NCBI GenBank assembly: GCA_021108215.1
Contig: JAIORK010000029.1
Coordinates: forward strand, 62,001 to 126,000
Direction of reading: 5' to 3'
Source: a bacterium
GTDB taxonomy: Bacteria; Oederibacteriota; JAAXVQ01; JAUVAV01
DNA: 64,000 bases
Within the stretch, counting starts at the first letter, position 1, and each line of letters begins with the position of its first letter. The translations under genes were made by a program, and so were the position numbers. This document shows positions 8,654 to 60,969 of this stretch, piece by piece. The notes under the pieces are model-generated. The model worked only from the letters and a program-made list of their open reading frames with translations. It was not told where the DNA came from and made no database searches.

Positions 8654-9649
8654 ATGAATTATTTAAAATATTTATCAATGATGGCCGTATTTTTCATTGC
8701 CGGATGCGGCGGACAGGCGCCGATGACATTTTTGACCATTGGTACCGGCGGTGTGACCGGGGTTTATTATCCGACCGGCGGGGCGATTGCTAAATTGATC
8801 AACCAAAAATCCAGTGACTATAAAATCAAGGCCACTGTCGAATCCACTGCCGGATCGGTGTATAATGTGAATGCTGTTTTAAGCGGTGATATTGAAGTGG
8901 GGATTGTTCAATCAGACCGTCAGTATCAGGCCTATCACGGGGTGGCGGAGTGGGAAACGCGCGGTGCCCAGAAGAAATTGCGTGCTTTGTTTTCCATTCA
9001 TCCAGAGTCAATTACCTTAATTGCTACTGTGAAAAGTTCGATCACTCAGGTCGGGGATTTGAAAGGAAAAAGAGTGAATTTGGGAAATCCCGGATCAGGA
9101 CAATTACAAAATTCCAAGGATACCTTGCAGGCATTTGGGTTGACAACAGATGACATCCGGGCGGAATACGTCAAGGCTGTAGAAGCGCCGGGTTTGTTGC
9201 AAGACGGACGGATTGATGCTTTCTTTTATACGGTGGGGCATCCGGCAGGGAATATTAAAGAAGCGACTTCAGGCAGAATCAAAGTGAACATGATTAATAT
9301 TACAGGCAAGCCGGTTGATGCGCTGGTAAAACAATATTCTTATTATGCCAGATCCATTATTCCCGCAGCCTTATACCCGGCTGTAAAAAATGATACTGAT
9401 TGCCGGACTTTTGGTGTGAAAGCAACCGTGGTTTCCTCTGCGGATGTCGATGAAGCCATCGTTTACGCCATTACCAAAGAAGTGTTTGGGAATCTTGAGG
9501 CGTTTAAGCAAATGCATCCTGCTTATCAGGTGTTGACCAAGGAAAATATGCTGGAAGGACTGTCAGCACCTATTCATTCAGGTGCAATGAAATATTATAA
9601 AGAAGCCGGCTTGGATAAATTTATTGATCCGGAATCGGTTGTTGAATGA
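8654..9649 (+). CDS. TAXI-family TRAP transporter solute-binding lipoprotein
   Basis: 331 aa with a GGGGG ribosome site. The lipobox FIAGCGG puts Cys at ~18, so the protein is anchored to a membrane facing the periplasm. The mature start (FLTIGTGGVTGVYYPTGGAI) and internal GDIEVGIVQSDRQY are typical of the TAXI (TRAP-associated extracytoplasmic immunogenic) family, which binds small carboxylates such as glutamate or other dicarboxylates. The substrate cannot be assigned. The fused permease gene follows after ~100 nt that contain a palindromic repeat, a normal TAXI gene order. Confidence 0.92.
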   Translation: MNYLKYLSMMAVFFIAGCGGQAPMTFLTIGTGGVTGVYYPTGGAIAKLINQKSSDYKIKATVESTAGSVYNVNAVLSGDIEVGIVQSDRQYQAYHGVAEWETRGAQKKLRALFSIHPESITLIATVKSSITQVGDLKGKRVNLGNPGSGQLQNSKDTLQAFGLTTDDIRAEYVKAVEAPGLLQDGRIDAFFYTVGHPAGNIKEATSGRIKVNMINITGKPVDALVKQYSYYARSIIPAALYPAVKNDTDCRTFGVKATVVSSADVDEAIVYAITKEVFGNLEAFKQMHPAYQVLTKENMLEGLSAPIHSGAMKYYKEAGLDKFIDPESVVE

Positions 9650-9683
9650 TTCAATAAAAATGTATTATGGGGGGGCAGACATA

Positions 9684-9720
9684 CGGCATCCGGCATTCGC
9701 CGGACAAGTTCGCCGGACAA
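9684..9720 (+). repeat. Family E GC-rich repeat, copy E1
   Basis: The segment contains CGGCATCCGGCATTCGCCGG and two copies of CGCCGGACAAG. The same words occur in frame inside the ABC-F gene (17742-17799), and its reverse complement is the core of the inserts at 60924-60954 and 30626-30647. It lies between the TAXI and permease genes, inside a spurious 5' extension of the permease frame. Confidence 0.8.
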
Positions 9721-9753
9721 GCATCGGTCTGTCCCTGCGATATGGAAATTAAT

Positions 9754-11748
9754 ATGAATTTTGATCGTTCGTCATATCACAAAATAGCGATTGCCACGCT
9801 TGCGATCAGTTGGGCCTTGTTTCAATTATCCTTAGCCAGCTGGCTTATTTTAGACAGCATTAAAATACGCGCGCTGCATCTGGCTTTTGCCTTGTCTTTA
9901 TTATTTCTCACAATCCCGTTTAAAAAAATAAAGAGCAAACCGCCGGGAGAAACAACACTATTTCAACCAACCTGGCGTCATTGGGGCTTGGTCGTGGTTG
10001 CAAGCTTGGCAGCATTGTACATTGTTATTGATTTCAATGGATTGTCAACACGAATGGGCCAATTGTTTATACGGGATATCATTGTTGGTATGCTTTTAAT
10101 TGGCTTGTTGCTGGAAGCCACCCGGAGAAGTCTTGGCCCGGCATTGCCTGTGATTGTGCTCTTGTTTTCCATCTATGTATTTATCGCACCTTACATGCCG
10201 TCTATTTTGGCAGCCAAAGGTGTATCGATCAATAAGTATATTAATCAAACCGCATTGTCCTATGAAGGTATTTTTGGGATTCCCTTAGGTGTCTCGGCAA
10301 CCGTGGTTTATTTATTTGTATTACTCGGCGCCTTGCTGGACAAAGCCGGTGCAGGGCATTACTTCACCAGCTTGGCAGTGGCTTTGCTGGGGCGCTATAA
10401 AGGCGGGCCTGCCAAAGCGTCGGTGGTTTCCAGCGGCCTTTCCGGCATGATCTCCGGGTCCAGCATTGCCAATGTGGTGACAACCGGGACATTTACCATC
10501 CCACTGATGAAGCGGGTGGGTTACCCGGGAGAAAAAGCGGCGGCCATTGAAGTGGCTGCCAGTACCAATGGCCAATTGATGCCGCCCATTATGGGTGCGG
10601 CAGCCTTTATTATTGCCGAGTATGTAAATGTTCCCTATTTTGATGTGGTCAGAGCAGCTGCGATTCCGGCATTTGTATCGTATGTCGCTTTATTTTTTTT
10701 GACCCATTTGGAAGCCAGCAAGCTGGGAATCAAGGGATTGCCGGTTGACGCATTGCCTCGTTTCAATGAACATTTTAAAAAAGGCGTACATTATTTGATT
10801 CCCATTGGAAGTTTAATTTATGAATTGATTGTATTACGCCGTTCAACAGAATCAGCTGCGTTTCACGCGATCATTATTTTAATTGCCATTATTATCTATC
10901 AGGAAATAAAAAAATCCCTACAGCAAAAAAAGAGCGTGAAAGCCGGATTGCTGAATGCCTTGCTTTTGACCGGCCAGGGGATGGTACAAGGTTCAAAAAA
11001 TATGATAGGTGTTGCCCTGGCCACTGCCGCCGCCGGCATCATTGTGGGTGTTGTAGGACTGGGTTTGGGCAGCATGATTACCCAAATCGTTGAAGTACTG
11101 GCCATGGGGAATGTTTTTTTGTTGCTGCTTATCACAGCGATTGCCAGTTTGGTGCTGGGCATGGGTCTGCCAACCACGGCAACTTATATTGTGATGGCAT
11201 CTTTAACTGCACCGGTGATTGTTCAGGTCGGCGGAAGTTATGGGGTTGTGATTCCTTTGATTGCAGCGCATTTATTCTGTTTTTATTTTGGCATCTTAGC
11301 AGACGATACGCCACCGGTTGGCTTGGCCGCATATTCAGCAGCTGCCATCGCCAAATCCGATCCGATTAAAACCGGCTTGATCGGTTTTTTGTATGATATG
11401 CGAACCGCGATTATTCCGTTTTTCTTTATTATGAACAGCGAATTACTGCTGATCAATGTCACCGGTTGGTGGTATGGGATGGTTGTTTTTGTCATGGCCC
11501 TGCTGGGTGCATTGGCATTTACCTCATTGCTGCAGGGTTGGTTGATTGTGAAAAATGAATGGTATGAATGGCCCTTTTTGGTGATGACCACCATATTATT
11601 ATTTCATCCGACAAGTATTGTTATGTTTCTACCGCAGGGTTTGCCTGTGAAAATAATAGGGTACGGCACAGGATTATTAATTTTGGCTGGAATTGTTTTT
11701 GGCCAAAAGATGAGGGGCCGGAGGCAGGGCGAACCTGTTCACTTGTGA
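9754..11748 (+). CDS. TRAP transporter fused permease (small plus large membrane subunits)
   Basis: 664 aa from the ATG at 9754 (GGAAAT just upstream). The frame is open from 9667, but that stretch is mostly repeat E1, so the longer start is doubtful; 9742 is another option. The first ~190 residues form about four to five helices equivalent to the small (DctQ-like) subunit. The rest is the 12-helix DctM-like subunit, with the conserved SGLSGMISGSSIANVVTTGT, ASTNGQLMPPIMGAAAF and GMGLPTTATY. Such fusions are the rule for TAXI-TRAP systems. It uses an ion gradient and the upstream lipoprotein to import a carboxylate-type substrate. Confidence 0.92.
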   Translation: MNFDRSSYHKIAIATLAISWALFQLSLASWLILDSIKIRALHLAFALSLLFLTIPFKKIKSKPPGETTLFQPTWRHWGLVVVASLAALYIVIDFNGLSTRMGQLFIRDIIVGMLLIGLLLEATRRSLGPALPVIVLLFSIYVFIAPYMPSILAAKGVSINKYINQTALSYEGIFGIPLGVSATVVYLFVLLGALLDKAGAGHYFTSLAVALLGRYKGGPAKASVVSSGLSGMISGSSIANVVTTGTFTIPLMKRVGYPGEKAAAIEVAASTNGQLMPPIMGAAAFIIAEYVNVPYFDVVRAAAIPAFVSYVALFFLTHLEASKLGIKGLPVDALPRFNEHFKKGVHYLIPIGSLIYELIVLRRSTESAAFHAIIILIAIIIYQEIKKSLQQKKSVKAGLLNALLLTGQGMVQGSKNMIGVALATAAAGIIVGVVGLGLGSMITQIVEVLAMGNVFLLLLITAIASLVLGMGLPTTATYIVMASLTAPVIVQVGGSYGVVIPLIAAHLFCFYFGILADDTPPVGLAAYSAAAIAKSDPIKTGLIGFLYDMRTAIIPFFFIMNSELLLINVTGWWYGMVVFVMALLGALAFTSLLQGWLIVKNEWYEWPFLVMTTILLFHPTSIVMFLPQGLPVKIIGYGTGLLILAGIVFGQKMRGRRQGEPVHL

Positions 11749-11832
11749 GGAGGGATTCGTGATAAACAGACATAGGCGTAACATTTAGTTAATATCAATT
11801 TTGTTTAAATGAAGTAATACAGCCGATACTAT

Positions 11833-11991
11833 GACCGGTCGAAATACTTATTTTTAAAGAAAAAAACTTGTCCGGCGGATGCAGGACGCATCATCAATAG
11901 GGATATCGTCATAGTGGGCCATATCGTCGAAGTTTGCTTGGTTGTGTGCTGATAGTGCCGGTTTCTCTTTAAAAATAAGCATTTTGACCGG
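11833..11991. repeat. Family B palindromic repeat, copy B1
   Basis: This fills most of the 286-nt gap between permease and GNAT genes. The arms are near-perfect: left GACCGGTCGAAATACTTATT and on to TTTAAAGA (11833-11860), right TCTTTAAAAATAAGCATTTT then GACCGG (to 11990). The interior has GATATCGTCA and AGTGCCGGTTT, words shared with copy B2 (20501-20713) and with the core of A1 (39238-39425). No ORF inside is credible. Confidence 0.75.
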
Positions 11992-12034
11992 CTTGGCAAC
12001 AGGATGTTTTATGAATCGGGAGTAGAATGTATAG

Positions 12035-12520
12035 ATGATTGTGGAGTATAGAGATATCAAAATGAAAGATGAGCCGGTCCTATGGGATATGCTCTATTTA
12101 GCGCTGTATGTTTCGCCCGGGCAGCCGTCTTTTTCCCGCAAAATACTCAAGGATCCGTCAATTGCCCGGTACGTGGCAGGGTGGGGACGGGCTGGTGATG
12201 AAGGCTTGTTGGCCTATGCAGGTGATAAGATACTGGGCGCGATCTGGATCCGGTTGTGGCCGGAAGATGCGGATAAGGGATTTGGCTTTGTTTCTCATAA
12301 AATTCCTGAGGTCATCATGGCGGTTTTGCCTGAGCATCGAGGGCTTGGTGTGGGAACTACTTTATTGGATAAGTTGATTTCTCAAGCGCAGGTGCGGTAT
12401 TCGGCTTTGAGTCTGAGTGTTGCTGAAAGTAATTCAGCGCAGCACCTGTATAAACGTTTTGGATTTGTATCAGTTGAAAAAACAAGTGATGCTTATATCA
12501 TGGTTAAAAGATTTTGTTGA
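12035..12520 (+). CDS. GNAT-family N-acetyltransferase
   Basis: 161 aa. The acetyl-CoA-binding motif A is clear at ~residues 95-115 (VLPEHRGLGVGTTLLDKLI), and the C-terminal NSAQHLYKRFGF is the usual last strand-helix of the fold. The substrate is unknown: GNATs acetylate amines on small molecules or proteins. The start at 12035 is preceded by GGAG at modest distance; the internal Met at 12062 is possible. A bidirectional terminator hairpin follows at 12553. Confidence 0.85.
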   Translation: MIVEYRDIKMKDEPVLWDMLYLALYVSPGQPSFSRKILKDPSIARYVAGWGRAGDEGLLAYAGDKILGAIWIRLWPEDADKGFGFVSHKIPEVIMAVLPEHRGLGVGTTLLDKLISQAQVRYSALSLSVAESNSAQHLYKRFGFVSVEKTSDAYIMVKRFC

Positions 12521-12552
12521 GACCTTTCTTGGGAACGGGGTTGGTTTTAAAA

Positions 12553-12579
12553 AAAATCTAATGAAATTCATTAGATTTT
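12553..12579. terminator. Bidirectional Rho-independent terminator
   Basis: A 13-bp perfect inverted repeat (AAAATCTAATGAA and TTCATTAGATTTT) with A-rich and T-rich flanks lies between two convergent genes, GNAT (ends 12520) and the propeller protein (ends 12588). It could serve both directions. Confidence 0.75.
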
Positions 12580-12587
12580 AAATTATA

Positions 12588-14462
12588 TCAGAGCAGCAAA
12601 ACAACCTTACCTCGTTTTGTCCCTCCCGGTCCTTCCACAATGTAGATATAGGTTCCGGAAGCCACGGCTGCACCGCGGCGGTTCCTCAGGTTCCAGACAA
12701 TTGACGTACTGGGATCGTTTTTTTCAATTACTTTGACCAGTTGTCCCGTGATGTCGTAAATGCGGATTTTTACCTGGAGAGGGAGATTGGTGAACGTTAC
12801 CCGGGGAGTGACACTATCTTTGGAACGGTACGGGTTGGGGTACACCACGATCCGGGATATGTCAGTAAACGGCAGACGGGTCGGTGTGATGGTGGAGGTC
12901 TGCGTGATGCTGGGTGTCGCAGTTGCTGTGCGGGTTGGCAGCGGGGTGGAAGTAACCGTTGTAGTCGGCGTTATCGTACGGGTTCGTGTCACGGTGTAGG
13001 TCGGAGTAATCGTAGAAGTGAGCGTGATTGTGCTCGTAGGTGTGGGCGTGAAGGGCGGCGTATGGGTACTCGTGGGTGTGATGGTGGATGTGATGGTGAT
13101 GGTGAACGTGGGGGTTGCGGTCGGTGTTACAGTCGCGGTCGGTGTCGCAGTCGGCGTGGAGGTTAGTGTTGACGTTTGCGTGATCGTCGGGGTATGACTG
13201 GGGGTTTCCGAAACAGTAGCGGTAAGGGTGATGGTTGGTGTGGGACTGACAGTTGACGTCAGGGTGGGTGTGGCGGTGATGGTCGCAGTGGGTGATGACG
13301 TGGCGGTGAGGGTCACAGTCGCAGTAGGTGAGGCGGTTGGGGTGAAAGTCGGTGTACCTGCGATGGTTGAGGTGATGGTCGGTGTGGGGGTGAGCCACTT
13401 GTATTCATAGAGCAAAGTATCGACTGAACCTACATAAATTTGGTTTTCTGTGCTGCCATTCCGGCCCGGTCCCACAGCGATGGAAAGCAAATCATTGGGT
13501 GACGGACTCCCGATGTCCAGTGGAGCACTCCAGGATGATCCTGACCAGGTCAGCTCGTAAACATGATCGCCCCGCGTGGCGGCATACAGGCGCGTGACCC
13601 CGTCGCTACGGCCGTCGCCAATGGCCAGCCCGAAGACACGATCCATGCCGCTGGCAATAATCGTCGCTGCTTCCCAACTGGTTCCATTGTAATAGCGTTC
13701 ATAGATTTCTCCGTCCTGATCACCGGCATAAAGGTAAACAACGGAAGAACCGGTACGAGCCGTACCCATTGCAATAGATAAGACCTCGTTCCCGCAATTG
13801 ATGTTCATACCGGTAGCACCCCAAGATGCCCCATTCCACTGGTATTCCCGCATAAAATTTGCTTTGCTGCCGGCATAAAGGTAATTGTTGGTATCGCCGT
13901 TTTGGCCCGGCCCCACTGCGATAGATTTGACTTCGTCACCCATGGTGAGAATTGAGGTATGCGACCAGCCGCTGGAATAAGTGAATTCGTCGACCTCGCC
14001 GCTCTTATTGCCGGCATAAATCCGCTGTACGCCGTCATTGCGAGCGGCGCCAAGGGTAACGGATTTGATCTCATCATTGGTTGTGCCCGCGCTGGTTTCG
14101 CCCCAGGAAGTGCCGTTATGAAAATATTCATAGAGGACATTGTCTTTGTTGGCAGCCATAAGCCGTGATTCACCGTTATTCCGGGCGTCGCCGAGTGCGA
14201 TCCCGAAAATTTCATCATGATTTCCGGTCAGGACGAACCGGTCCCAAGAACCACCGGTCCATATATATTCATAAGCGTAATTATTTTTATTTCCTCCATA
14301 GACCGCGCTAATTGTATTATTGCGTCCCTGTCCTACAGCCACGGACATAAAATCATCACTCTCGTTACCGACCGTGGTAATTTGCCACAACGCTGAGGAG
14401 GCGCTGGGGAGAACCAATAATCCGATTAAGGCCATGAAGAATAATTTTTTTGTAGTAAACAT
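12588..14462 (-). CDS. Secreted seven-repeat propeller protein with PT-rich linker and FlgD/T9SS-like C-terminal domain
   Basis: 624 aa. There is a signal peptide ([20 protein letters not shown]). Residues ~25-355 contain seven repeats of ~46 aa, each with a [DE]-x(2-4)-[SG]-[IV]-A-[LVM]-G core, then YAG/NK and YEY...G.SW, so a seven-bladed beta-propeller is likely. Residues ~358-530 are a Thr/Pro/Ser-rich linker (TPT, TAT, TST units). The last ~90 residues ([12 protein letters not shown] ... [12 protein letters not shown] ... [12 protein letters not shown]) match FlgD-like/type A sorting domains used in type IX-like export. It is probably a surface protein. The ligand is unknown. Confidence 0.8.
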
Positions 14463-14615
14463 ATAAGACTCCTTAAATAAGACTATCTATTAAGTTTACC
14501 ATTGATTCTTTCATAATTAAGAATATAAAAATATATAGATATATGAGAAAATTAAAAAAATGGCCTAATGGTAAAGTGTTGAATTTTATGGACACAGTTT
14601 GATCGCAGGGTGGTC

Positions 14616-15983
14616 ATGATGATGAAAAAAATAATAGTTCATTTTGTGCTGTGTTTGCTGGTTTCAGCGGCGACCAGCCATGGTGCCACGACTTGGAAGT
14701 GGATTGCTTATGGAGATACCCGGACCAATGATATAGAACACCGGCAGGTACTTGATGCCATCCAAAACAGTTCCGCTGGTTATGCTTTTATTATCAATGT
14801 CGGCGATGTGGTGGAAAACGGCTGGAATCAGACGCAATGGGATACCTGGCAGGCAGCCTGTGATGATGAGCTGGGAGGGACCCACCAGACCCAGACGCCG
14901 CCGGCATATATGTCTGCGCCGGGAAATCATGATGATCTGGGGACTGGCGGACTTACCAATTGGAACACCTATCTTTTCGGTCAATATCAGCAGTATGGCA
15001 ATGACGGAAAATATTTTGTGTTTGATTATGCCAATGCCCGGTTTGTGGTTTTAAATTCCGAGGAATCACTCACGTCTTCCCAGTACACCCTGCTCATGCA
15101 GTCCATTGGAAATAATCCGCAAGAATGGCTGTTTGTTTTTTGGCACCGGCCTATTTTTGATTTTGGGCCCAAAGTCTATGAAGCAGCCATTCATTCAACC
15201 TGGGGTGTTCCTTTGTATCAAAATGGGTGTGATATTATTTTTACCGGGCATGCACATTATTATGTCAGAACTGAAAAATTAGGGCTGGACGGTAATCCCA
15301 ATCCACCCTTGGATGCGACTGCCGGCACAGTGCAAATTGTGACCGGGAATAGCGGGGCGCCATTGTATGCTGTCGATGAAAACCACGATAGTAATGGATA
15401 CATGGTGGCTTATTCATTTGATGAAGACCAGGCTGCATTTCACGGGTACACCGAGTTGAGTGTTACCGGGACGAGTATGGTGCTGCGGCATATTCGGGTT
15501 GATGGAACGGTGATGGATACGACGACATATACCGCAAACCCCAAGCCGCCGACTTTTACAGTAACACCTACACCGACTTTGACGAGTACGCCGACAAGTA
15601 GTGCTGCCAGTACACATGTGATTTTACCAGCAACCGATACGCCAACCCCGACGAATACCTATACACCAAGCCATATTCCGACATCCGCAGTTTCGCCGCC
15701 GCCAGTGGACAGTCGGGTTACGCGAGTCGTTTTACTGAGCAATCCGAGCAGAAGTATGGTGAAGTTTGTTTTACCCGGTAATATTATCGGTAAAGTGGAT
15801 ATCGGAATATTTAATATTACCGGTGAAAAAATAGCGGATTTAACCCACAAGAAAACGGTGAACAGTGCAGAAGTGTTGCGGTGGGAATGTGAGCACGTTA
15901 CTTCCGGGATCTATTTTGCCGTGATTAAAGTGGATACTGTATTCAAAGAAAGGCTGAAATTTGCGATTGGTAAATTACGCTGA
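14616..15983 (+). CDS. Secreted calcineurin-like metallophosphoesterase with PT linker and sorting-type C-terminus
   Basis: 455 aa; AGGG lies 5-8 nt before a cluster of three in-frame ATGs (14616-14624). A signal peptide ends near SHGA. Metal-binding motifs appear in order: YGDTR, NVGDVVENG, APGNHDD, FWHRP and FTGHAHYY, spread over residues ~35-215 as in purple-acid-phosphatase-like enzymes. Residues ~310-365 are a Thr/Pro linker. The last ~85 residues (VVLLSNPSRSMVKF ... IFNITGEKIADL ... TSGIYFAVIK) resemble the C-terminal domain of the propeller protein transcribed divergently from it. The substrate is unknown. The two divergent genes probably use the same export route. Confidence 0.87.
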   Translation: MMMKKIIVHFVLCLLVSAATSHGATTWKWIAYGDTRTNDIEHRQVLDAIQNSSAGYAFIINVGDVVENGWNQTQWDTWQAACDDELGGTHQTQTPPAYMSAPGNHDDLGTGGLTNWNTYLFGQYQQYGNDGKYFVFDYANARFVVLNSEESLTSSQYTLLMQSIGNNPQEWLFVFWHRPIFDFGPKVYEAAIHSTWGVPLYQNGCDIIFTGHAHYYVRTEKLGLDGNPNPPLDATAGTVQIVTGNSGAPLYAVDENHDSNGYMVAYSFDEDQAAFHGYTELSVTGTSMVLRHIRVDGTVMDTTTYTANPKPPTFTVTPTPTLTSTPTSSAASTHVILPATDTPTPTNTYTPSHIPTSAVSPPPVDSRVTRVVLLSNPSRSMVKFVLPGNIIGKVDIGIFNITGEKIADLTHKKTVNSAEVLRWECEHVTSGIYFAVIKVDTVFKERLKFAIGKLR

Positions 15984-16008
15984 CCATTCTACATGATTTG
16001 TTGTATGT

Positions 16009-16089
16009 GTCCAAATTAGAGAATTAGTGGTCAATTAGGAATGTCCTGAAAAAATCAGCATCCAGGACGATTTAGTGACAGTGGACAAC
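16009..16089. repeat. Family A palindromic repeat, copy A0 (short form)
   Basis: The ends GTCCAAATTAGAGAATTAGT and TTTAGTGACAGTGGACAAC recur almost unchanged at the ends of A1 (39238-39425). The inside is a small hairpin GTCCTG...CAGGAC with the word CAGCATCCAGGA. The outermost bases GTCCA/TGGAC are inverted, as in a small non-autonomous element. It lies just after the phosphoesterase gene. Confidence 0.75.
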
Positions 16090-16238
16090 ACAACAATGAT
16101 AATTGGCATAGCGCTCATGTTTACCTGATATCCCGCCTATGCGGCTGTCGCCGGGTTGATTCTGGATCTTCATTTTTTTTCGAAACAATGTATAATAGTT
16201 CCCTTTGAATACTGTTATGAAAAGGACCGTTTTTTATT

Positions 16239-18188
16239 ATGATTAAAATTGCAGAATTGAGCAAGTCCTACGGGCCACAGGTGTTGTTGGACAAAGTGAG
16301 TTTTAATATTAACGAGGGAGACCGTGTCGGTCTGGTGGGACGCAACGGCAGCGGCAAGACCACTTTGTTCCGTATTTTATTGGGCAATGAGGAACCGGAT
16401 AACGGTGAGGTGGCAATTCCCAAGGATTACACCATTGGTTATTTGGAGCAGCATCTTCAATTCACACAACCGACTGTTTTGGAGGAAGCGTGTCTGGGAT
16501 TGCCTCCGGACAAGGAATATGATCACTGGCGGGTGGAAAAGGTGTTGTTCGGGTTGGGTTTTACGGAGGAAGATATGCATCGTCCGCCGGGCGAATTTTC
16601 CGGGGGATACCAGATCCGGCTTAATCTTACAAAAACCCTGGTAGGGGAACCGGACCTGCTTTTGCTGGATGAGCCGACCAATTATCTGGATATTGTTTCA
16701 ATTCGCTGGCTGGAAAAATTTCTCCGGGCGTGGCAAAGAGAGTTTGTGCTCATCACCCATGATCGTCAGTTTATGGACGCTGTGACATCACACACGCTGG
16801 CAATTCATCGCTGTAAGGTACGCAAGATTGAGGGCAAGACAGCGAAGCTGTTTAATCAGATTATGCAGGAAGAGGAGATTTACGAAAAAACCCGGCGGCA
16901 CGAGGAGAAAAAACAGAAAGAAACGGAAATATTTATCCGGCGCTTTCGGGCCAAAGCACGGCTGGCCGGGATGGTCCAGTCACGGATTAAGAGTCTGGAT
17001 AAACAAAAAAAAATGGAGCAATTGGATAAAATTTCAGATGTTGAATTTTCTTTTCCCAATGCTGAGTTTCCAGGACAGGAAATGCTAAATACCGAAGAGC
17101 TGGGTTTTGCTTATGATACCGCGCTTCCCTGGTTGATCGAAAAACTTAATTTCAGTCTTGGCCCGAGGGAAAGGATCGCAATTATCGGGAAAAATGGCAA
17201 GGGGAAATCCACTCTGCTCCGTTTATTAGCTGGAGAACTCACGCCGAATACCGGGAGAATACGTCAGCATGCCCGTCTGGAAGTGGGTTATTTTGGGCAG
17301 ACCAACATTCAGCGGCTTAATTCGGAAAACACAATTGAAGATGAGTTGATTACCACGGATCCGAACCGGAGCCGGGAACGCGCACGCTCCGTTGCGGGTG
17401 TGATGCTGTTTAGCGGTGATCAGGCTTTGAAAAAGATCAGTGTGCTCTCGGGCGGTGAGAAGAGCCGGGTGATGCTGGGGAAATTGCTGCTTAAACCGAC
17501 TAACCTTTTATTGCTGGATGAACCCACCAATCACCTTGACCTGGAAAGTTGTGAATCATTGCTGGATGCGATGCAGGATTATGCAGGTTCGATTATGCTG
17601 GTAACCCATGATGAGATTTTTTTGCATACCCTGGCGGAAAAGCTGATCATTTTTGATCGTGATCGGGTTTTATTCTATCATGGCCGCTACCAAAATTTTC
17701 TTGAGGATATTGGCTGGCAGAATGAGGAGATACAAAAAGAACCCGGCATCCGGCATCCGGCATCTGCCGGACAAGTTACGCCGGACAAGTTACACCGGGC
17801 TGGCCCGGCCATATTCAGCGTAAAGGTAGACCAGGCGCCAATACCGGAAAGAAAAGAAATTTCTTCCGGGGAGAAAAAAGCGCTGCGTCAGGCCCGGGCA
17901 AAGTTAAACCAGGAAAAATCGAAAGCACTTCGGCCGGTGGAAGCTAAAGTGAAAAAGACGGAGAGTATGATTGATACCCTGGAGATGGAAATTAGCCGCA
18001 ATAATGACCGCATGGTTGAGGCCGCCACCACGGGGGATACGCAGGCGATTGCCGAACTGCCAAAAAAAAATAAAGATCTTCAGATACAGGTGGATTTTCT
18101 TTATAGGGAACTGGAAAAAGTCCATCACGCGCTGGATGTGCAGGTAAGGATGTATGATAAAAAGATGAAAGCGATCGAGGCTGGATAG
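16239..18188 (+). CDS. ABC-F family ATPase
   Basis: 649 aa with two ABC domains and no membrane segment. First domain: Walker A GRNGSGKTT (~residues 35-43), signature FSGGYQIRL, Walker B LLLLDEPTNYLD. Second: GKNGKGKST (~residues 316-324), signature LSGGEKSRVM, Walker B LLLLDEPTNHLD. The linker between them is long and basic, and the last ~85 residues form a coiled coil. ABC-F proteins act on ribosomes in translation regulation, stalling relief or antibiotic protection; the subgroup is not assigned. Residues ~502-522 (GIRHPASAGQVTPDKLHRAG) are encoded by palindromic repeat E2, inserted in frame between the second ATPase domain and the coiled coil. A TATAAT-like box lies at 16191. Confidence 0.92.
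   Translation: MIKIAELSKSYGPQVLLDKVSFNINEGDRVGLVGRNGSGKTTLFRILLGNEEPDNGEVAIPKDYTIGYLEQHLQFTQPTVLEEACLGLPPDKEYDHWRVEKVLFGLGFTEEDMHRPPGEFSGGYQIRLNLTKTLVGEPDLLLLDEPTNYLDIVSIRWLEKFLRAWQREFVLITHDRQFMDAVTSHTLAIHRCKVRKIEGKTAKLFNQIMQEEEIYEKTRRHEEKKQKETEIFIRRFRAKARLAGMVQSRIKSLDKQKKMEQLDKISDVEFSFPNAEFPGQEMLNTEELGFAYDTALPWLIEKLNFSLGPRERIAIIGKNGKGKSTLLRLLAGELTPNTGRIRQHARLEVGYFGQTNIQRLNSENTIEDELITTDPNRSRERARSVAGVMLFSGDQALKKISVLSGGEKSRVMLGKLLLKPTNLLLLDEPTNHLDLESCESLLDAMQDYAGSIMLVTHDEIFLHTLAEKLIIFDRDRVLFYHGRYQNFLEDIGWQNEEIQKEPGIRHPASAGQVTPDKLHRAGPAIFSVKVDQAPIPERKEISSGEKKALRQARAKLNQEKSKALRPVEAKVKKTESMIDTLEMEISRNNDRMVEAATTGDTQAIAELPKKNKDLQIQVDFLYRELEKVHHALDVQVRMYDKKMKAIEAG
17742..17799 (+). repeat. Family E repeat, copy E2, in frame inside the ABC-F gene
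   Basis: Three tandem CCGGCAT units are followed by GCCGGACAAGTT and CGCCGGACAAGTT, matching E1 at 9684-9720. The reading frame is kept (GGC ATC CGG CAT = GIRH, the same frame as in the 5' extension of the permease). The base composition is much richer in GC than the flanking codons. It resembles protein-inserted palindromic elements known in Rickettsia. Confidence 0.82.
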
Positions 18189-18405
18189 CCTGTTTTTATT
18201 ACATTTTCTGCAACTTGATCTGTCGGACAAACACTGATTAAAAAAAATCCGGGATTAACAATACCGTTTCACCCGCCTTTGGTCTGCATTTGATAAGGAC
18301 AAAAAACCTTCGAAAAGTAAAAAAAGTGAAATATAATATGCATTATTTGAGTCTAATTTTTATAGTCAGAATAATGGGTGCGCCAAGACGTATGCGGAGG
18401 ATACC

Positions 18406-18846
18406 ATGTTAAAAAAAGATGCAATTCATGTCATGATTATTCGTCTGGAAATGGATAAAAAAATAAATTTTTCAGTCCTTTTGTCTTCCGATGGGTCCAT
18501 CAATCGGATTGGGACCGGACTCAAGGATAATGATGATTCGACGATGTATTCCGGAATTTGCCGCGAAGATTTGTTTTTGAAAATACTTGAATATGTGCCG
18601 GATGCGATTTTTGATAAGCAGGGAAATTACGAGGTTAAAGACCGCAAGGGGCGGTGTTGTGAGATGATTTTTTATTTTTCCAATCAGGCGGAGAGTGAGA
18701 CGGCCCGTTTTAGGTTTATCTACGGCTCTGAATCCATGGGGCCGCCCCTGCCTTTCGTGCAGCTGTTTGCGCATGCCCGGCAGATTACAGATTCCTGGTA
18801 TTTGCGTCAAAAAAAGGTTTCGCAGACCATGGCGATGAAGGGCTAG
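18406..18846 (+). CDS. Conserved-looking hypothetical protein
   Basis: 146 aa with a strong GGAGG 6 nt before the ATG. There is no signal peptide or membrane helix. Hydrophobic and charged segments alternate in an alpha/beta pattern, with a basic stretch KDRKGRCCEMIFYF around residues 80-93 and a C-terminus rich in Gln and Lys. I do not recognise the family. A possible promoter (TTCGAA-N17-TATAAT, 18309-18337) lies 69 nt upstream. It stands alone between the ABC-F gene and the convergent ankyrin gene. Confidence 0.6.
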   Translation: MLKKDAIHVMIIRLEMDKKINFSVLLSSDGSINRIGTGLKDNDDSTMYSGICREDLFLKILEYVPDAIFDKQGNYEVKDRKGRCCEMIFYFSNQAESETARFRFIYGSESMGPPLPFVQLFAHARQITDSWYLRQKKVSQTMAMKG

Positions 18847-18891
18847 CCAATCCGTTGGAAGCCTAATCCACATAAAAAAACATGGTTGTTT

Positions 18892-19812
18892 TCATTGTTG
18901 CAAAAGATTCAAAAGTTTTTTTGATTGTCGCTTGTGCGCAAGATCTAGCGGTGTTTGATTATGGTTGTCCGGGAGTGTGGTCTTGGCATTGGAGCGCAGC
19001 AGTAATTTTATCAGGCGGATATAACCATGCCGGGTTGCGATATGCAATGGGGTTTGACCGTTGTGATCAGCGGCATTGATGTCACTGCCGGCTTTAATGA
19101 GATAAGCGGCTAAACGCCGGTTGTTGCCGTGGCATGCCAGGTGGAGCAGCGTTTCCTTGGTTTTCGGCAGGAAACTGTGGATGGTTTGTTGGGTGTGTCT
19201 CAGGGAAATTTTCATTGTTTTGGGAGAGGCATAAAAGGCCAGGATAAAGGGTCCGGCAGTTTGCATTTTTGAAAGGCGTTTGACTACTTTGTTGTATCCA
19301 AGTTTTCCTGCCTTGTAGGCTGGTAATAAATCGATACGATCAACGGGGGGGGAGGTTTTGGCGCCTTTGTCGATGAGCAATCCCACAACATCGGCCCAAC
19401 CTTGCATCGCCGCAAGTTCGAGGACACTTTCTCCGTTCGCAGCTTTATCATTTGGATTAAAATCACCGAGAATTAATCTGAAGGCAATCGCTTTGCTCCC
19501 GTGGCGAATTGCAAGATAAAGCACGGAACGCCGGTCTGCATCTTTGAGAGACAGGTCGGTACCCCGGGTAATCAACCAATCCGCAGTTTTGAAGTGCTGG
19601 TTTTCCAGCGCGACCAGCAAGGCTGTTTTGCCTTGGGCGTTTTGTTGGTTGATATTCGCGCCCTGGGTCAGTAATTTTTTAAGTGTTTTGCGGTCATCCT
19701 TGGCAGCAGCCTGGTGGAGAGGCGCGGAAAGAAGATCAGATCCCCCAAGCGGTGTTTGGAGACTAAGCAGTGTGAAACTAAATAATACCGTAGCAAGCAG
19801 TTGTCTGCTCAT
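18892..19812 (-). CDS. Exported ankyrin-repeat protein
   Basis: 306 aa from the ATG at 19812 (AAGGGG upstream; the TTG at 19830 is rejected). A signal peptide (LLATVLFSFTLLSLQTPLGG) directs export. Ankyrin repeats are visible in two blocks, ~residues 30-150 (LHQAAAKDDRKTLKKLLTQG, TALLVALENQHFKTADWLI, SVLYLAIRHGSK) and ~215-300 (LLHLACHGNNRRLAAYLIKA, TPLHIATRHGYIRLIKLLL), separated by a ~60-aa non-repeat segment. Ankyrin stacks bind other proteins; the partner in the envelope is unknown. The gene converges with the hypothetical gene at 18406. Confidence 0.85.
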   Translation of the reverse strand: MSRQLLATVLFSFTLLSLQTPLGGSDLLSAPLHQAAAKDDRKTLKKLLTQGANINQQNAQGKTALLVALENQHFKTADWLITRGTDLSLKDADRRSVLYLAIRHGSKAIAFRLILGDFNPNDKAANGESVLELAAMQGWADVVGLLIDKGAKTSPPVDRIDLLPAYKAGKLGYNKVVKRLSKMQTAGPFILAFYASPKTMKISLRHTQQTIHSFLPKTKETLLHLACHGNNRRLAAYLIKAGSDINAADHNGQTPLHIATRHGYIRLIKLLLRSNAKTTLPDNHNQTPLDLAHKRQSKKLLNLLQQ

Positions 19813-30480: not shown

Positions 30481-30670
30481 TTTAATATGTTGGCCGCGAA
30501 TTCCCCGGCTTTTAAGTCGGGAGTGAAGCGGGATAGTAATAATGACTTTTTACAGATCATATCCAAGTCCCCTGACCGGATAGATAATTGAAGGATGGGA
30601 CTTCTGTTGGTTGCCCGCTCTTTTGCCCGGCGAATGTTGGGTGTCGGATCAGAGCGGGGAACTTGAATTA
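30481..30670. repeat. Family D double-hairpin repeat, copy D2, with two nested inserts
   Basis: It has the same framework as D1 but two inserts. Near 30574-30611 it carries GACCGGAT ... ATGGGACTTCTGTTGGT, also found inside element C2 (58287-58321). At 30626-30647 an E-type palindrome (CCCGGCGAATG...) splits the loop between CCCGCTCTTTT and CAGAGCGGGG. It lies just upstream of nrdJ and within the 388-nt gap to the next gene. Confidence 0.8.
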
Positions 30671-34477: not shown

Positions 34478-35295
34478 ATAATTCAATTGTTGCCTTTGCC
34501 GATTATCCGGGACGTGATTTTCATCTGGCTCCGGGTGATATCAGTGCGAGAGATAATGGGATGAATTTGAGCGGCTACACGCCAATGCCATTTACAGATG
34601 ATATTGACAGAGAGATTCGGTCAATTAATTGGGATATCGGGGCTGACGAGGAATATCCCATTCCAACGCCAACACCGACTGTAACAGTGTCTTTCACGCC
34701 GACATTATCACCGACGGTGACCGCTTCAGCCAGCGCGACACCCTCACCCACGTTTTCGCCGACGGTGACCGTGTCCGCCAGCGCGACACCTTCACCCACG
34801 TTTTCGTCGACCCCAATATCGCCGATGACCGCAACAGACACACCCACACCGCTATTGACATCAACAGACACACCCACCTTGACGGAAACCCCGGATTATT
34901 CACCAACGATTACATCCACGGTAACGCCCTATCATTCGTCGACACAGACACCGAGTATAACCGTCACGTCGGTTGCGACATCGACTTCAACCGCTGTTCC
35001 TGAACCAAGTATAACCTCGGTGCGTATCCGGAACAATGTGATTAAAGCTGGGGGCAATCAAGGGATGGCGATTGATGTGCCGCTTGATCATGCCCAGCAC
35101 GTTTCCATTAGAATTTATAACCAGCGCGGAGAACTTATGACCGTTATTTCAGATCAGGAACAGGAATCCGGGATCTTTCAGGCAGTCTGGCAAGGTAAAA
35201 ACGCGAGTGGTTCTCCGGTTCGCTCCGGTGTTTACCTTATTTATATAAAAACAGATAATATTAATCTCAAAAAGAAAGTGGCGGTTATTCGCTGA
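34474..35295 (+). CDS. Continuation of the beta-helix protein: PT-rich linker and sorting-type C-terminal domain
   Basis: Frame fragment joined to 33347-34477 by a 1-nt shift; it has no ribosome site of its own. It carries the end of the beta-helix (DFHLAPGDISARDNGMNLSG, WDIGADEE), a Thr/Ser/Pro-rich linker of ~100 residues with repeated units (TASASATPSPTFSPTVT), and a final ~90-aa domain (VSIRIYNQRGELMTVI ... SPVRSGVYLIYIKTDN) like those ending the proteins at 12588 and 14616. Restoring one base would give a secreted protein of ~650 aa. The stop overlaps the ATG of the PorV-like gene by 1 nt. Confidence 0.7.
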   Translation: MNNSIVAFADYPGRDFHLAPGDISARDNGMNLSGYTPMPFTDDIDREIRSINWDIGADEEYPIPTPTPTVTVSFTPTLSPTVTASASATPSPTFSPTVTVSASATPSPTFSSTPISPMTATDTPTPLLTSTDTPTLTETPDYSPTITSTVTPYHSSTQTPSITVTSVATSTSTAVPEPSITSVRIRNNVIKAGGNQGMAIDVPLDHAQHVSIRIYNQRGELMTVISDQEQESGIFQAVWQGKNASGSPVRSGVYLIYIKTDNINLKKKVAVIR

Positions 35296-60885: not shown

Positions 60886-60969
60886 GTGCCAGCGCGAACA
60901 CAATGGGCAGCTTGCCCGGCGTACTTACCCGGCGAATGCCGGGTGCCGGGTAAGCCTGTGGATTTTTAT
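60886..60969. repeat. Family F repeat, copy F2, with an inserted E-type palindrome (E3)
   Basis: It is the same as F1 (5450-5502) except for a 31-nt insert after TTGCCCGG. The insert forms a 10-bp perfect stem CTTACCCGGC (60924-60933) and GCCGGGTAAG (60945-60954), whose reverse complement carries the CGGCAYCCGGCATTCGCCGG core of E1 and E2. It lies within the 333-nt gap between the RAYT-like gene and der, ~105 nt upstream of the RAYT start. Confidence 0.85.

Follow-up and report, generated by a model that had tools for sequence, protein, structure and literature searches.

The palindromic elements of Rickettsia and Wolbachia occupy surface-exposed sites in proteins, and different Rickettsia elements (RPEs) have been found near each other in orthologues (PMC3767692). 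RPEs measure 100-150 bp, and in some families about half of the copies lie in ORFs (PMC3767692, PMC10969869). In-frame fusions of MITE and ERIC sequences and of other small elements have also been reviewed (PMC2229807, PMC10969869). GTAG/CGTC REPs are short multi-copy hairpins, mostly intergenic, some of which lie wholly within ORFs and code for 20-30 amino acids (Di Nocera 2013, PMC3733652). Two Xanthomonas carry different REPs at the same recB site, REPs occur inside other palindromes, and Y1 transposases are found in REP genomes (PMC3733652). The original prediction for the present locus took protein-coding palindromes to be rare outside Rickettsia, a view made outdated by the intragenic GTAG/CGTC REPs of several non-Rickettsia species (PMC3733652). 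According to a published proposal, Y1 (RAYT) transposases mobilise the short hairpin repeats called REPINs in single-stranded form (PMC3116915, PMC8266576). The small dispersed repeats (SDR) of Nostoc are, as far as these accounts go, very small, dispersed and presumed mobile, at about 20 bp (PMC2884548, PMC3116915), and the GC clusters of yeast mitochondria, which are GC-rich palindromes of short length (42 nt, for example), are mobile and undergo merging and shuffling (PMC4478555).

We analysed a 64,000-nucleotide stretch of bacterial DNA (the window), in which one such repeat, here called E2, lies within a conserved gene. We consider it probable that this tiny hairpin repeat, which spreads into hairpin loops including its own, entered the linker of an ABC-F gene and was then enlarged by two 21-nt self-insertions, with a likely neutral outcome. 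The features concerned are as follows.

16239 to 18188, plus strand: ABC-F family ATPase gene, an ORF of 649 aa with two ABC domains and a C-terminal helical hairpin.
17742 to 17799, plus strand: in-frame E2 repeat, a three-level nest CCCGGCAT(CCGGCAT(CCGGCATCTGCCGGACAAGT)TACGCCGGACAAGT)TACACCGGG, identified by repeat matches in the genome and by its absence from 46 orthologues.
17757 to 17776, plus strand: innermost 20-nt hairpin unit CCGGCATCTGCCGGACAAGT, defined by alignment of copies.
17724 to 17858, plus strand: linker holding the insert, residues 496-540, predicted disordered (pLDDT <50, AlphaFold model).

The DNA at 17742-17799 is CCCGGCATCCGGCATCCGGCATCTGCCGGACAAGTTACGCCGGACAAGTTACACCGGG. 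It codes for most of GIRHPASAGQVTPDKLHRAG; the peptide stretch at the insert is HPASAGQVTPDK, and EEIQKEPGIRHPASAGQVTPDKLHRAGPAIFS is read within the 649-aa protein. That the repeat adds about 20 in-frame residues, as originally predicted, is borne out by the ORF and by BLAST and sequence-model matches far above chance, and the insert is presumably translated. Pfam finds two ABC_tran domains and ABC_tran_Xtn in the protein, whose nearest solved structures are YheS, YbiT and EttA. The AlphaFold model, made with an alignment of 33 sequences, places the insert where the prediction had it, after the second ATPase domain and before the long C-terminal helical hairpin. The extra residues are most likely a neutral lengthening of a disordered linker.

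For comparison, 46 ABC-F orthologues were aligned, seven of them from the same family and order (56-72% identity). The closest named relative of the gene is held by a MAG of candidate division FCPU426 (70% identity). The original prediction had called for this comparison, and what was found was not a conserved linker in repeat-free genomes: the segment was missing in 46/46 orthologues, even in those of 64-72% identity, and elsewhere among the 46 the linker varied widely in both length and sequence. Relative to its orthologues, the segment reads as an insertion into the ABC-F gene, which the alignment establishes at the level of sequence.

The orthologue of G004, a sister genus of the family, carries GTAGGGGCAGGTTCCCCTGACCGGAATGGATGTAGGGAACGGTCGCGACCGTTCCCTAC in the same linker. 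The G004 insert is unrelated to E2 and has the features of a GTAG REP, namely a GTAG end, multiple copies and a palindromic sequence. The corresponding repeat GTAGGGAACGGTCGCGACCGTTCCCTAC is a perfect GTAG palindrome that folds at -12.6 kcal/mol, gives 90 BLAST matches in G004 (both strands counted), and also occurs in G000 and G002. The simplest reading is that two independent insertions took place in a tolerant linker, one in the window genus and one in G004. A single old insertion in their common ancestor, overwritten later by different palindromes, would also explain why the same linker is hit in both genera, and the poorly resolved branching (supports 0.53 and 0.30) leaves room for it. 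However, the inserted sequences of the two genera are unlike each other, and G001 and G005, which stand nearest to G004 in the ABC-F tree, are without any palindrome, and we regard a common origin as unlikely.

The genome that carries the window (3.56 Mb, 97% complete, 67 contigs) contains many further copies of E2. With short flanks added, 17742-17799 gave 40 BLAST matches at E<=10 in this genome, the best non-self match having an E of 2.9e-12. A sequence model of 45 positions, built from 21 copies, gave 152 matches at E<=1 and, with stricter filters, 91 at E<=1e-3. When 58 relatives were searched, two other genera of the family gave 27 and 19 matches, and E2 was not found with the model at E<=1e-3 in the other 56. 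Rfam at its gathering threshold gave no match in window positions 9000-19000, and E2 had no match among phage records. The minimal unit has 20 nt, CCGGCATNCGCCGG(A/G)CAAGT, and consists of a 5-bp hairpin and a tail; the consensus unit alone folds as DNA at -5.8 kcal/mol (z -3.66). Read as sequence, the consensus has no stop in three frames of the forward strand and one of the reverse strand, and the element is therefore permissive for coding. Among 89 copies with flanks, the E2 core was found between many unlike arms, which fall into at least 10 flank classes, and several of these classes are plainly palindromic. Four more copies lie in the window itself.

9684 to 9722, plus strand: second E2 copy, a two-level nest with arms GGGGCAGAC / GTCTGTCCC, between the end of a TAXI-type gene and a TRAP permease.
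11865 to 11889, minus strand: degenerate single-level E2 unit CCTGCATCCGCCGGACAAGT inside a longer A/T-rich palindrome.
30611 to 30661, minus strand: diverged E2 unit that forms part of the loop between the palindrome arms CCCCGCTCT...AGAGCGGGG.
60910 to 60948, minus strand: E2 copy of the variant type GGCAC/GGGTAAGT, enclosed in a longer element, ATAAAAATCCACAGG...GCACGATAA.

The copy next to the permease had been taken to share protein-coding words with the ABC-F insert. The copy is real, and the four residues GIRH are indeed in the same frame; only these are shared because an extra 7-nt unit in the ABC-F copy shifts the remaining frame. Its coding role was not borne out: the part of the extended ORF that is homologous to the permease of the only relative starts with residue 36, the repeat lies N-terminal to this homologous region and upstream of two internal ATGs, and it is probably untranslated, 5' of the true start. 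Frequent protein-coding use of E2 was likewise not borne out, the ABC-F copy being the only one deep within a conserved gene among about 90 strong and about 40 weaker copies. Other candidates were considered and rejected. In the long ORFs L094, L127, L140, L111, L116, L147 and others, the repeat lies 5' of a plausible start or itself makes a spurious ORF, and the E2-like matches inside ordinary genes (L136, L196, L146, L161) are chance matches with up to three substitutions. Elsewhere in the window, long threonine/proline-rich (TPTxT) low-complexity stretches occur at 12588-14462 (minus strand) and 34663-34854, in predicted surface proteins.

Comparison of E2 copies within the genome bears on how the element spreads. 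The empty form GGGCGAATACATGGATTCGCCC has a filled counterpart GGGCGAATACAT(CCGGCATGCGCCGGACAAGT)GGATTCGCCC that is longer by exactly 20 nt, and in the same genome TTCCCCGTTCTAAAGAGCAGGGA has a +20-nt and GTAGGGGCACGGCGCGCCGTGCCCCTAC a +21-nt filled form; the three empty/filled pairs support insertion, each being made up of relatives from separate loci of one family rather than of one site in two strains. In the exact +20 pairs, the target is duplicated by at most one base. When the unit was removed from the copies, a hairpin was restored across the junction, with a mean of 3.01 vs 2.05 for flanks re-paired between different copies (sd 0.09), a statistic that overstates the number of independent events, since E2 copies are kin and whole nests can be copied. 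We preferred this junction test to one in which inverted repeats could lie at any place within flanks of 45 nt, where the signal was weak (mean 6.4 vs 5.8).

The longer E2 cores are regular, with the form CCGGCAT + unit + NCGCCGG(A/G)CAAG, which is the form expected if a unit is inserted after CAT in the loop of another unit. Across 135 units, extra left heptamers co-occur with extra right units (39/56 vs 5/79, Fisher p 3e-15, r 0.67), where the kinship of copies again inflates the count of independent events. In the ABC-F copy there are two heptamers on the left and two units on the right. The two joints read TTA and are of the 21-nt kind, ACAAGTTAC, by which the frame is kept; in other E2 copies, joints of either length, 20 or 21 nt, are common. 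This fits selection against frameshifts, for which two joints are too few to serve as proof. The outermost level in the ABC-F gene might be an older GC-rich stretch. A second nested hairpin, CCCCGCATACGCGGGGCAAGCTGGGCAAGT, sits at one fixed place, immediately after CGGCATTCGCC, in many E2 copies (L090, L113, L123, L128, L131, L154, L158 and others), forming another nesting layer. We found no direct bacterial precedent for recursive self-nesting of a 20-nt unit in the literature searched; by description, the Nostoc SDRs come nearest.

The ABC-F nest could instead have grown by replication slippage and template switching alone: one GC-rich palindrome would have arisen or landed in the linker, and its left heptamer and right 14-mer would then have been duplicated with the help of the hairpin, with no mobile element involved. 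The left and right parts are indeed short tandem repeats of 7 and 14 nt, and L132 has about eight right units with one extra left unit. Slippage would not, however, be expected to give equal nested growth on the left and right, nor to place an exact 20-mer in unrelated hairpins, and as the sole process it seems to us rather improbable. In the L132 and L116 arrays right units outnumber left ones, and here slippage is also needed. In L132, from position 2509 onwards (G000:C52:8239-8404), about eight tandem copies of the 14-nt CGCCGGACACAGTT have apparently grown from one E2 nest.

Insertion of a spreading hairpin into loops, the reading we favour, builds on a repeat family, a nesting grammar, an open frame and a predicted disordered site that are all established above, and the course of events was probably the following. 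The E2 unit would spread by inserting into the loops of other hairpins and into its own loop, probably at times when the DNA is in single strands. The first to enter the ABC-F linker may have been one unit or a related short hairpin, and two later self-insertions of 21 nt would each have added seven residues with the frame unbroken, this order being the one we infer. The insert would have been kept, a disordered linker tolerating a change of length. The leading candidate for the mover is a RAYT-like Y1/HUH transposase; alternatively, the units may move by template switching during replication. PF01797 (Y1 transposase) domains gave five matches in the genome itself and were present in 8/8 relatives. 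For the genome's two best Y1 transposase genes, the flanks examined contained neither E2 nor a GTAG palindrome, and the link to the enzyme is weak for this reason.

Whether the added residues are of use to the protein has to be asked as well. The insert might have been selected as a positively charged spacer, or because the mRNA folds into a hairpin there and translation is slowed at a domain boundary; it lies exactly at such a boundary, and palindromes have hit the ABC-F linker in two genera. Against this, the peptides inserted in the two genera bear no relation to each other, other genera have no insert, and the linker varies widely in length in a region predicted to be disordered. We considered a selected function and found no support for it; such a role appears improbable, and the insert is in our view presumably neutral. 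An assembly or binning artefact of a short-sequence draft genome, conceivable with 67 contigs and repeats able to misjoin them, is very improbable for a repeat of only 58 nt that is flanked by homologous sequence in a continuous ORF and preserves its frame.

The in-frame insertion of a hairpin is not confined to E2 in this lineage, where the GTAG family shows recurrent in-frame insertion. We viewed 101 GTAG palindromes in the examined stretches, which are not a random sample. Those in frame in the genome of the window lie in genes for a YgiQ-type radical SAM protein (VGATGRSPL), a CheY-like receiver (VGNGRDRSL), HsdR (VGANDYSPL), an NHL-repeat protein and two Y1-transposase-like proteins; those in G004 lie in genes for a receiver, a Y1-like protein and a 717-aa coiled-coil protein, and in G002 one lies in a Y1-like gene. 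Their positions, all in frame, are given below where they were recorded.

L210, 1136 to 1163: GTAG insert in YgiQ, window genome.
L260, 1558 to 1585, and L275, 1489 to 1516: a GTAG palindrome (VGNGRDRSL) shared by CheY-like receivers of two genera, in both of which it lies in the alpha3-beta4 loop.
L166, 2892 to 2919; L259, 1929 to 1956; L281, 1731 to 1758; L289, 1495 to 1522: GTAG palindromes in Y1 (REP-type) transposase-like genes.
L166, 4427 to 4454: GTAG insert VGANDYSPL in HsdR (type I restriction), just before the helicase motif GGVIWHTQGSGKS.
L272, 1502 to 1529: GTAG insert in the 717-aa coiled-coil protein of G004.

The YgiQ insert is absent from G002, G003, G005, G006, G007 and most of the more distant genomes, while YgiQ of G004 (L300) has a different GTAG palindrome at the same loop, with an E2-like hairpin nested in it. 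Several insert-free paralogues and relatives of the receivers continue straight across the alpha3-beta4 loop; other odd insertions occur at this loop in the paralogues L318, L321, L323 and L324. GTAG insertion is likely in the HsdR, coiled-coil and NHL genes as well; the NHL-repeat protein could be compared with a single relative genome, whose sequence at the insert site is different. In the coiled-coil protein, VGADPLVLSEAEGRAVPL and similar peptides look repeat-derived. The Y1-like genes of three genera have the GTAG palindrome just after an IMPNHxHGI motif, so that the presumed mobilising enzyme family itself bears REPs at one conserved place.

It is tempting to go one step further, tentatively and with less than even confidence, and to propose that a hairpin of 20-21 nt targets loops including its own and thereby grows recursively, that its 21-nt steps add seven residues at a time in genes, and that in this candidate phylum palindromes have repeatedly and independently used the same few protein loops (the ABC-F linker, the YgiQ loop and the receiver alpha3-beta4 loop). 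Our findings extend protein-coding palindromes to an uncultured phylum, show unrelated palindromes hitting the same protein loops in different genera, and reveal a clear anatomy of insert growth in nested 20/21-nt units. A minimal recursive unit would limit the models for the movement of REP-like hairpins. Related bacteria with in-frame palindromes in several genes are a good place to study how a repeat becomes protein, and sequence comparison alone can test there whether selfish repeats supply protein segments, and where these are tolerated.

The likeness to the Rickettsia elements that was originally predicted stands: E2, like RPEs and the Wolbachia elements (WPE), is a palindromic repeat present at many loci and in frame within a conserved host gene whose orthologues lack it. 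Membership of the RPEs does not stand, since E2 differs in size (58 nt here, built of 20-21-nt units), in sequence, to which it is unrelated, in its host, which is FCPU426-like and not of the Rickettsiales, and in being almost always intergenic, with no large share of copies in ORFs. MITEs, with 70-300 bp and terminal inverted repeats of 15-30 bp, are unlike a 20-nt unit with a 5-bp stem, which has no target-site duplication beyond the single base, at most, of the exact +20 pairs. The GC clusters are organellar and have putative 2-nt target duplications, none of which are evident for E2. The cyanobacterial SDRs are reportedly mobile units of about 20-27 nt within other repeats, and those of Nostoc are said to insert into other repeats; E2 matches this description in size and nesting, unlike in sequence, where there is no link to the Nostoc SDRs. 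As in REPIN hosts, Y1_Tnp genes are present in the E2 genome, but REPINs are inverted doublets, whereas the units of E2 are direct and nested, with no Y1 gene found to flank it (two best Y1 genes examined). E2 resembles the GTAG/CGTC REPs in being a short, high-copy and mainly intergenic stem-loop; it differs from them in its smaller size, in nesting in its own loop, and in a consensus that starts with CCGGCAT and ends with CAAGT, with no GTAG/CGTC terminus. We therefore file E2 as a REP-like element, of a kind rarely intragenic, in contrast to which the insert in the ABC-F gene of G004 is a typical GTAG palindrome.
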